NCBI GenBank assembly: GCA_030840415.1
Contig: JAVEEO010000338.1
Location: 1-12,223 of the forward strand
Length of the DNA: 12,223 nt
Direction: 5' to 3'
Origin: Pseudonocardiales bacterium
GTDB lineage: Bacteria > Actinomycetota > Actinomycetes > Mycobacteriales > Jatrophihabitantaceae
The position numbers and the translations under genes were made by a program. The notes under the pieces were generated by a model, which saw nothing but the letters and a program-made list of their open reading frames with translations, was not told where the DNA came from and ran no database searches. The number at the start of each line of letters is the position of its first letter. Position 1 is the stretch's first letter. Shown here one piece after another: positions 4,842 through 6,623 of this stretch.

Positions 4842-5156
4842 ATGTGCCGCAGCATCCAGACGTTGCGTCCGCCGTACGTCGAGCACGTCACCTCCGACGA
4901 CATGCACGCTGCTGCGCTGCAATACGTCCGCAAGATCTCGGGGATGCGCGCGCCGTCGAAGGCGAACATCGAGGCTTTCGAATCCGCGGTCGCGGCGGTC
5001 ACCGAGGCCACCCAGCAACTGCTGGACCAGCTCGTGGTGAAGCCGTCGACGTCCAAGAACGGCAAGGAGTTCGCCAACCACACCGCGCACGCCCGGGCCC
5101 GTGCCGAGCGCGATCACGAGAAGGCGCACGCTGAGGGACGGGCGCACAGCCACTGA
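4842..5156 (+). CDS. DUF2277 family small protein
   Basis: Function unknown. The 104-residue soluble protein shows the DUF2277 signature: N-terminal [12 protein letters not shown] with Cys at position 2, then [28 protein letters not shown] and a helix [10 protein letters not shown]. Met before Cys is normally removed, so Cys may be the N-terminal residue. The tail from about residue 72 is charged and carries six His residues ([25 protein letters not shown]), which could bind metal; that is inference. The stop overlaps the pdxT ATG by one base (TGATG), so the two are very probably translated together. A link to PLP synthesis or PLP handling is suggested only by this position between pdxS and pdxT. 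Confidence 0.85.
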
Positions 5157-5794
5157 TGAAGATTGGCGTCCTGGCGCTGCAGGGTGACGTCCGCGAGCAC
5201 CTGGCCGCGCTGCGCGAGGTGGGTGCCGAGGCGCTGCCGGTCCGGCGGCTGTCCGAACTCGAGGCGGTGGACGGCCTGGTGATACCGGGTGGCGAGTCGA
5301 CCACCATCGTCAAACTCGCCCGGTCCTTCGAGCTGTTCGAACCGCTGCACAAGCGGATCGCCGAGGGAATGCCGACCTACGGCTCGTGTGCCGGGATGAT
5401 CCTGCTGGCCGATCGGATCCTGGGCGGTACCGCCGATCAGGAGACCTTCGGCGGCATCGACATGACGGTCCGGCGCAACGCCTTCGGCCGCCAGGTGGAG
5501 TCCTTCGAGGAGCCGGTGCCGATCGAGGGCGTGCCGGGCGGCCCGGTGACCGCGGTGTTCATCCGGGCGCCCTGGGTGGAGGAGGTCGGCCCGGCCGCGC
5601 AGGTGCTCGCCCGGGTGGAGTCCGGACCCGCGACCGGTAGGATCGTCGGGATTCGCCAGCAGCACCTGCTGGCCACGTCGTTCCACCCCGAGCTCACCGG
5701 TGACGCGCGCGTGCACGGGTACTTTCTGAACATGGTGCGCGAGGCATTGAGCGACGACGGGCTCTCGCGCGCGAAGAGCGAAGGTGATCAGTGA
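5156..5794 (+). CDS. pdxT: Pyridoxal 5'-phosphate synthase glutaminase subunit PdxT
   Basis: Class-I glutamine amidotransferase that hydrolyses glutamine and channels ammonia to PdxS. The product has 212 residues. Features in order: [16 protein letters not shown]; the oxyanion-side PGGESTT (44-50); nucleophile C78 in [12 protein letters not shown]; and catalytic H177 and E179 in FHPELTGD. These match the C79/H170/E172 triad of the B. subtilis enzyme. The family core ends near NMVREAL; the following tail ([14 protein letters not shown]) is extra, and its last part is encoded by one copy of a 20-bp direct repeat shared with the yebC leader. The start codon overlaps the DUF2277 stop (TGATG). The nearest purine-rich site (GAGGGA, 5133-5138) is 17 nt away, so initiation is probably coupled. 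Confidence 0.97.
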
Positions 5795-5870
5795 GCGAGC
5801 ATCGCAGGCGCCCCGCGCCGAGGAGCGCAGCGAAGCGGGCGATGAGCGCTCGCGCGAAGAGCGAAGGTGA
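5768..5870 (+). repeat. MIRU-like bridge element bounded by a 20-bp direct repeat
   Basis: CGCGCGAAGAGCGAAGGTGA occurs exactly at 5768-5787, inside the end of pdxT, and again at 5851-5870, as the ribosome site region of yebC; the period is 83 bp. Both copies are followed by near-identical sequence (TGAGCG after 4 bases). The spacer contains a hairpin GGCGC-CCC-GCGCC (5807-5819), a pair CGCTC/GAGCG (5847-5851 and 5859-5863), and purine-rich GAGCGCAGCGAAGCGG words. The copies differ in frame by one base, yet both encode the peptide RAKSEGD just before a TGA. This looks like insertion or duplication of a short intergenic element between two operon genes. Confidence 0.7.
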
Positions 5871-5877
5871 CAGATGA
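5791..5877 (+). CDS. 28-codon bridging mini-ORF between pdxT and yebC
   Basis: GTG at 5791 overlaps the pdxT stop (GTGA). The frame runs 28 codons, with an Arg/Ala-rich product ([18 protein letters not shown]..), and ends at TGA 5875-5877, which overlaps the yebC ATG at 5874 (ATGA). The exact fit of both ends suggests a translational relay rather than a functional peptide. No homologue is recognised, and it may not accumulate as a protein. Confidence 0.3.
5863..5870 (+). promoter_or_regulatory. Ribosome binding site of yebC within the repeat
   Basis: GAAGGTGA, whose AAGG core ends 6 nt before the ATG at 5874, is part of the second repeat copy. The 5' neighbouring pair CGCTC (5847-5851) and GAGCG (5859-5863) could form a small hairpin abutting it. 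Confidence 0.55.
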
Positions 5878-6623
5878 GCGGCCATTCCAAGTGGGCTACC
5901 ACGAAGCACAAGAAGGCTGTCGTAGACGCCAAGCGCGGCAAGATGTTCGCCAAGCTGATCAAGAACATCGAGGTCGCGGCCCGCACCGGCGGCGGTGACC
6001 CGAACGGCAACCCGACGCTGTACGACGCCATCCAGAAGGCCCGCAAGACCTCGGTGCCACTGGACAACATCGAGCGGGCGGTCAAGCGCGGCTCGGGCGC
6101 CGAAGCCGGCGGGGCCGACTGGCAGACCATCATGTACGAGGGCTACGGCCCGTCCGGGGTGGCGGTGCTGATCGAGTGCCTGACCGACAACCGCAACCGG
6201 GCGGCCGGCGAGGTGCGGATCGCGATGACCCGCAACGGCGGCAACATGGCCGACCCGGGCTCGGTGGCCTACCTGTTCAGCCGCAAGGGCGTGGTGATCG
6301 TGCCGAAGAAGGACGTCACCGAGGACGACGTGCTGGCCGCGGTGCTGGAGGCCGGCGCCGAGGAGGTCAACGACCTGGGCGACGAGTTCGAGGTGATCAG
6401 CGAGGCGACCGATCTGGTGGCGGTGCGGACCGCTCTGCAGGATGCCGGCATCGACTACGACTCGGCCGACTCGTCCTTCCTGCCCAGCGTCCAGGTGCAA
6501 TTGGACGAGGAGGGCGCGCGCAAGGTCTTTAAGCTGATCGACGCCCTCGAGGACTCCGACGACGTGCAGAACGTCTACGCGAACTTCGACGTCTCCGACG
6601 ACGTGCTGGCAGCCGTCGGCTAG
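5874..6623 (+). CDS. yebC: YebC/TACO1/PmpR family protein
   Basis: Long annotated as a transcriptional regulator. More recent work, as I recall it, links members of the family to translation, including relief of stalling at proline-rich stretches, so the role should be left open. The 249-residue product starts with the hallmark [65 protein letters not shown] (47-73), [22 protein letters not shown] (88-109) and the acidic C-terminal domain follow. Length is normal. The conserved yebC-ruvC neighbourhood is interrupted here by two minus-strand genes. It is the last gene of the pdx unit and is closed by a strong terminator. Confidence 0.97.

Follow-up and report, generated by a model that had tools for sequence, protein, structure and literature searches.

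An apparently unreported MIRU-like element between pdxT and yebC of a Pseudonocardiales bacterium and at stop/start overlaps in its relatives

What parts pdxT from yebC in the window, i.e., in the whole 12,223-nucleotide stretch represented by contig JAVEEO010000338.1 of the Pseudonocardiales bacterium assembly GCA_030840415.1? The two genes are joined by a short spacer with a direct repeat, which a sequence-only reading attributed to an insertion resembling the mycobacterial interspersed repetitive units (MIRUs) and bridged by a very small open reading frame (mini-ORF). MIRUs, reportedly described by Supply and colleagues in 1997 (a reference of PMC2734929), are used mainly as typing markers of mycobacteria; how they move and why they choose stop/start overlaps of genes are questions to which we know of no answer. 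The evidence collected here suggests, with a probability of about 0.85, that the junction harbors a single insertion of a MIRU-like element that is dispersed, non-autonomous, and accompanied here by a truncated partner; such elements would enter operons at DTGA overlaps (D stands for A, G, or T), where the stop of one gene meets the start of the next. The host is represented by a metagenome-assembled genome (MAG; 85.6% complete, 4.14 Mb, 569 contigs), and the window is its contig C400.

The 20-bp direct repeat with a spacing of 83 bp, which gave rise to the question, belongs to a longer 35-nt pair (5768-5802 and 5851-5885), 83% identical and exact over its first 20 nt. As judged from the sequence, each 20-bp repeat forms the right end of one of two element copies, the first copy being 5'-truncated. 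The repeat itself was described correctly; its 83 bp, taken for the insertion unit, appear to be the period of a two-copy array composed of an element proper of ~71 nt, consisting of a left (hairpin) and a right module, and a ~11-nt spacer, which we take to be target-derived (Table 1). The bridging frame was also read as proposed: its GTG (5791-5793) overlaps the pdxT stop TGA (5792-5794), 28 sense codons follow, and its TGA (5875-5877) overlaps the yebC ATG (5874-5876). The peptide RAKSEGD precedes a stop in both copies, as had been pointed out, and is read in the frame of pdxT in one copy and in that of the mini-ORF in the other; the frames differ because 83 equals 2 mod 3.

Occurrence of the unit in a single copy would speak against an inserted element, and the genome search returned many copies: 26 matches of the 83-bp unit at E<=1e-3 and 40 at E<=1, and 27 places for a 118-bp query at E<=1e-3 (the window's own copy is included in the counts at E<=1e-3). 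The unit was found in 9 of the 9 genus genomes searched, the host among them, with 1 to 33 matches each. A covariance model inferred from 23 element copies (R1) had matches in 23 of 24 genomes of the family, covering 11 of its 12 genera, at E<=1e-4 (host included), and the element is present in one-contig genomes (G005, G017, G022) as well. The start-to-start distance of neighboring units is 75-98 nt in 26 of 30 cases, so the size class (40-100 bp), the dispersal in many copies, and the tandem arrangement are those expected of MIRUs.

The insertion context was assessed by a profile hidden Markov model (HMM) scan of 102 loci, which revealed units in 99 and none at the HMM threshold in L026, L031, and L153; five element places (G004:C311, G007:C238, G007:C394, G007:C265, and G006:C85) are outside these statistics. 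Coding frames of the flanks were called by a codon model for which seven segments of the window served as the training set. In the 99 clusters, the upstream gene was co-directional with the element in 73 of 76 confident calls, and the downstream gene in 85 of 86. The upstream stop TGA was exactly at element base 1 in 31 of the 49 clusters combining a complete left end with a confident co-directional upstream gene. DTGA was present at the left of the last unit in 46 of 57 scored clusters, and 44 of these 46 also had DTGA at the downstream start, given that a DTGA start was preferred among possible in-frame starts and that 4 clusters lacking a nearby start codon were unscored. Co-directional insertion at DTGA stop/start overlaps of operon genes, characteristic of MIRUs, is thereby found here as well.

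Element-free counterparts of these junctions exist in relatives. In orthologue sets from G000, G002, and G003 (for L098, with its upstream flank unmatched, and L020, with its upstream flank missing from the host contig, these cover the downstream side only), at least one relative lacked any profile hit at 19 of 25 junctions; at the other six, the relatives had full copies, remnants, or weak hits only. Among the alignments listed, at least four display a clean element-free DTGA overlap (L212 for L115, L206 and L207 for L105, L211 for L109, and L176 for L003). The differences in element presence were seen between species, each represented by one genome. Taken with the DTGA preference and the co-directional genes, such junctions bear out the stop/start-overlap insertion proposed from the window. 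At L188 (G002:C13:12325-12955), an unrelated short tandem repeat (GAGACCCACCCCGAGGCTCA-like) is located where G000 and G003 carry the element.

The pdxT-yebC junction is variable, too. In the congeners G003, G005, and G007, the genes overlap by 4 nt and contain no element; related units part them in G002 and G004, the spacer is short in G001 and G008, and an element remnant resides in G006. The tail and spacer are accordingly not common to all relatives; had they been, they would have to be regarded as ordinary conserved sequence. In a broader survey, 73 of 90 junctions gave both genes (the R1 scan took in 88 of those 90 loci, and the survey leaves out 8 more genomes in which PdxT was matched, weakly in three): a 4-nt overlap was recorded in 30 of the 73 genomes, and such elements were present in two families, f1 and f5, e.g., as two right-module units of the 32-33-nt type in G027 (f5). 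This junction may be a recurrent target. In G014, from another genus of the host family, two tandem 80-bp variant units with a flipped hairpin pair (GGATC/GGACC) lie between pdxT and yebC (L044).

The position between two operon genes and the conserved family hairpin would also befit a leader or attenuator dedicated to regulating the pdxT-yebC operon. This explanation is very improbable and can be considered largely refuted, since the element sits at many unrelated junctions; moreover, it is missing from this very junction in three congeners, and an Rfam search of window positions 5700-5950 returned no match up to E 1.

The PdxT proteins of the relatives are alike up to about the motif MVRE, and their C-terminal tails differ beyond it. 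The tail in the window (15 residues given) includes the truncated element copy, in line with the suggestion that it derives from the element, and the PdxT tail of G004, SECERSDERLREEREKP, comes analogously from a truncated copy ahead of a full one (R1 match of 40.5 bits).

A trace of the insertion process was sought by comparing the left flank with the right spacer in 40 clusters. The summed suffix match amounted to 103 vs. 53 (sd 6.3) in permutations among clusters (p 2e-4), and most of the excess came from offsets 2-6 and 8 before TGA, so the insertion appears to duplicate ~8 bp along with the DTGA overlap. At the element-free junction L203 (G000:C317:6665-7290), duplicated CAATCATGAGC copies occur 6 nt apart; this looks like a footprint of target duplication left after element loss.

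Measured from the left TGA of the last unit, the distance of the downstream frame is 2 mod 3 in 43 of 57 clusters, and the remainders 0 and 1 were each recorded in 7. In the prevailing phase, an ORF that starts within the upstream stop comes to its end within the downstream start. The bias persisted after dropping copies >80% identical (9 of 11, p 0.0014) and after dropping the two commonest lengths (17 of 31, p 0.011). A start codon is available at the left end of the last unit in 47 clusters. In 36 of these, the stop of the mini-ORF falls exactly in the downstream start, so a small ORF overlapping both neighbor genes, another hallmark of MIRUs, turns out at the sequence level to be a family feature, in agreement with the mini-ORF noted at pdxT-yebC; of the remaining mini-ORFs, 8 stop 3-32 nt early, 2 fuse in frame, and 1 runs past. 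Internal stops interrupt the mini-ORF frame in 4 of 40 right-phase units, vs. 36 and 33 in the other two frames. Distances between neighboring units were 2 mod 3 in 16 cases, 0 in 13, and 1 in 1.

The left half of the element contains a stem with compensatory changes, e.g., the bases of one pair are C and G in 76 units, G and C in 13, and G and T in 1 (13 further units that did not parse are omitted). In the 15-pair structure, 86.9% of cells are paired vs. 13.9-53.9% in slid controls, although the structure was drawn from the same alignment, which favors it; the covarying pairs are the firm part. The covariation score of the structure, 0.231 vs. 0.083 in shuffles, was reached by 0 of 500. Such a covarying hairpin, together with the small size, the location between genes, the tandem arrays, and the lack of room for an enzyme gene, brings to mind the repetitive extragenic palindromes (REPs) and bacterial interspersed mosaic elements (BIMEs), which are tiny dispersed hairpin elements, sometimes clustered, and too small to encode an enzyme. 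A REP/BIME-like palindrome mobilized by a REP-associated tyrosine (Y1) transposase (RAYT) is nevertheless quite unlikely: a target duplication is indicated here, and single-strand Y1 transposition is not known to make one. Besides, the present element differs from REPs and BIMEs in residing at operon stop/start overlaps and in its phase-kept ORF.

How close is the element to the MIRUs themselves? According to the review PMC12548453, start codons are the insertion sites of MIRUs, which contain an internal ORF coupled at -4. The sequence of the MIRU292 unit, a canonical 53-bp MIRU, was taken from a table in PMC7977185. A MIRU292 dimer query found matches in 165 of 297 species genomes of genus g18 at E<=1e-5; as it carries the canonical MIRU, g18 is most likely Mycobacterium. 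When the canonical MIRU loci were processed with a similar script (19 scored of 30 loci), the upstream gene was co-directional in 14 of 14 and the downstream gene in 15 of 15 confident calls, and the stop was exactly at DTGA in 8. Co-directional neighbors and the DTGA site are therefore common to both kinds of elements, and the published MIRU lengths, 53 and 77 bp, share the remainder of 2 mod 3 with most units of the present family. In PMC4213456, the senX3-regX3 MIRUs are said to be confined to M. leprae and the tuberculosis complex; compared with that statement, the MIRU looks more widespread in g18.

The two kinds resemble each other in how they insert, in the size class of their units, and in their orientation and tandem arrays, and both are present in g18. 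This would suit a diverged true member of the canonical MIRU family, which we regard as unlikely. The alignments speak against such membership: with MIRU292, the one MIRU unit compared, the scores of the host-family element and the g18 left element were reached by 284 and 268 of 2000 dinucleotide shuffles, respectively, whereas the alignment of the g18 left element with the host-family one scores far above shuffles (0 of 2000). The right-module tandem gave a weak hint of similarity to MIRU292 (40 of 2000 shuffles reach its score). The element differs from MIRUs also in its two separable modules with a covarying hairpin and in the model matches, which extend over ten families of the order. Overall, it seems to work like a MIRU, and its homology to MIRU is unsupported by the MIRU292 alignment; the description of its sequence as unrelated-looking holds against that unit. 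The notion of a parallel in a different actinobacterium is true of the host and needs amendment in one respect, since both modules occur in g18, the MIRU-bearing genus, too.

The distribution of the modules is broader than that of the full element. In the order sample, R1 matched 73 of 298 genomes at E<=1e-6; 20 of them belong to the host family and the other 53 to nine further families. One or more of the matched loci were read for each of these nine: eight contain the left hairpin module, which f3 and f13 have in fusion with the right module, and the f5 locus is built of the right module only. The loci were often at stops and starts as judged by eye, without scoring. The right module was searched for as the exact 21-nt pattern GATGAGCGCTYGCGCGAAGAG in 397 genomes of the order; 49 have it, and they represent five families (f1, f3, f5, f7, and f12). 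In g18, it forms arrays of 32-33-nt units at ATGA. Of the 21 loci examined there, 10 could be scored, and 8 of these have the upstream stop precisely at the module. Several loci of this kind (L356, L357, L358, and L361 in G137 and G182) contain 3 to 5 tandem right-module units at ATGA and represent candidate variable-number repeat loci. Judging by sequence comparison, the element is a composite of a covarying hairpin module known from nine families of the order and a 21-nt module known from five.

With its strongly biased GAGCG composition and a fragmented host MAG, the repeat might be thought a low-complexity, GC-rich sequence or an assembly artefact. The aforementioned one-contig genomes carry the element with its site preference, phase, and covariation; the reversed 21-nt pattern, used as a control, gave 0 matches among the genomes listed; and in the phylum sample, R1 at E<=1e-6 found only the host (1 of 296), a control that covers the full element and the hairpin, since R1 at this threshold misses right-module-only genomes (G029 and G054). 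Refuted on all three counts, the artefact is hardly conceivable.

Certain observations weigh against an element inserted at DTGA overlaps. The training set of the codon model included at least one out-of-frame segment (3 stops in 2304 codons), the upstream stop is off element base 1 in 18 of 49 clusters, the L002 element lies in a spacer outside any overlap, and several relatives possess element remnants instead of clean empty sites; even the G003 pdxT-yebC junction, with its GAGCATC, may be a deletion scar. As to the phase, 14 of the 57 units deviate from 2 mod 3, and the p of 1e-10 for the 2-mod-3 class was obtained with no correction for common descent, which inflates the count. The window copy alone gave a single-sequence RNA fold not better than shuffles (z -0.98), so the hairpin claim draws on the covariation. 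No clear terminal inverted repeats were seen at the element ends, the predicted stems being internal. In this respect, the element departs from the miniature inverted-repeat transposable elements (MITEs): it resembles them in being small and non-autonomous and in its target-site duplication (~8 bp plus DTGA, p 2e-4), but its inverted pairing is inside the left half, and its orientation and site preference are strict.

The inserted element remains the preferred explanation, and the following scenario can be suggested for it. The element would enter at the 4-nt DTGA stop/start overlap in the direction of the operon, duplicating ~8 bp upstream of the overlap and the overlap itself. Owing to this duplication, the coding sequence and stop of the upstream gene would stay intact, as would the start of the downstream gene and the bases just before it. 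Between the two DTGA copies, the element would supply a predicted mini-ORF of roughly 20-30 codons; as it starts in the upstream stop and ends in the downstream start, a terminating ribosome could pass on by termination-reinitiation if the mini-ORF is translated, and near-neutrality would account for the persistence of the insertion. Copies might then expand in tandem or lose one side via recombination between short GAGCG/ATGAGC homologies, and the truncated copy at pdxT would have become the C-terminal tail of PdxT. Mobilization probably occurs in trans by a putative enzyme recognizing the hairpin.

Table 1. Features of the pdxT-yebC junction in the window (positions refer to the whole stretch).
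Feature	Position	Strand	Basis
pdxT, pyridoxal phosphate (PLP) synthase glutaminase subunit	5156..5794	+	PF01174 match 5168-5740
Truncated first copy, right-module remnant coding part of the PdxT tail (..SRAKSEGDQ)	~5761..5779 (left limit approximate)	+	Exact 20-nt repeat of the right end of the full copy
Target-type segment, left copy, GTGA at its end	5780..5794	+	Comparison with 5863-5877; target-duplication statistics
Full element, 71 nt	5792..5862	+	Match to R1 (covariance model) 5792-5861, 79.3 bits
Left (hairpin) module	5792..5836 (right limit approximate)	+	Covarying stem; module in other families
Right module with internal ATGA at 5842-5845	5841..5862	+	21-nt pattern match 5841-5861
Predicted mini-ORF, 28 codons	5791..5877	+	Sequence; family phase statistics
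Target-type segment, right copy, including the yebC start/stop overlap	5863..5877	+	Sequence comparison
yebC	5874..6623	+	ORF list; SGHSK start motif used to place the junction

That the family might be undescribed had been suggested, and so it seems: its repeat strings were not found in the open-licence literature, where only the MIRU292 unit surfaced, and no description of MIRU-like repeats in other actinobacteria was found there either, most subscription papers being outside this search. More broadly, and tentatively, with chances slightly short of even, an undescribed modular superfamily can be envisaged that uses the DTGA coupling site as its target in at least 10 of 16 sampled families of the order. 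Its modules (21 nt and a ~45-nt hairpin) would occur alone, in tandem, or fused; MIRUs would be either one of its lineages, a specialized one, or a parallel invention; and it would persist by virtue of the phase-kept mini-ORF and the target duplication, which would make the insertion translationally silent.

Overall, we are apparently dealing with an unreported MIRU-like superfamily with a predicted mini-ORF and a putative moving enzyme. Odd C-terminal tails and N-termini of proteins, such as the PdxT tail, may be fossil element ends and not features of the proteins. Since junctions with and without the element, the target duplication, the covarying hairpin, and the frame constraint are available across several genera, both questions about MIRUs, i.e., how they move and why they choose stop/start overlaps, become testable outside pathogens.
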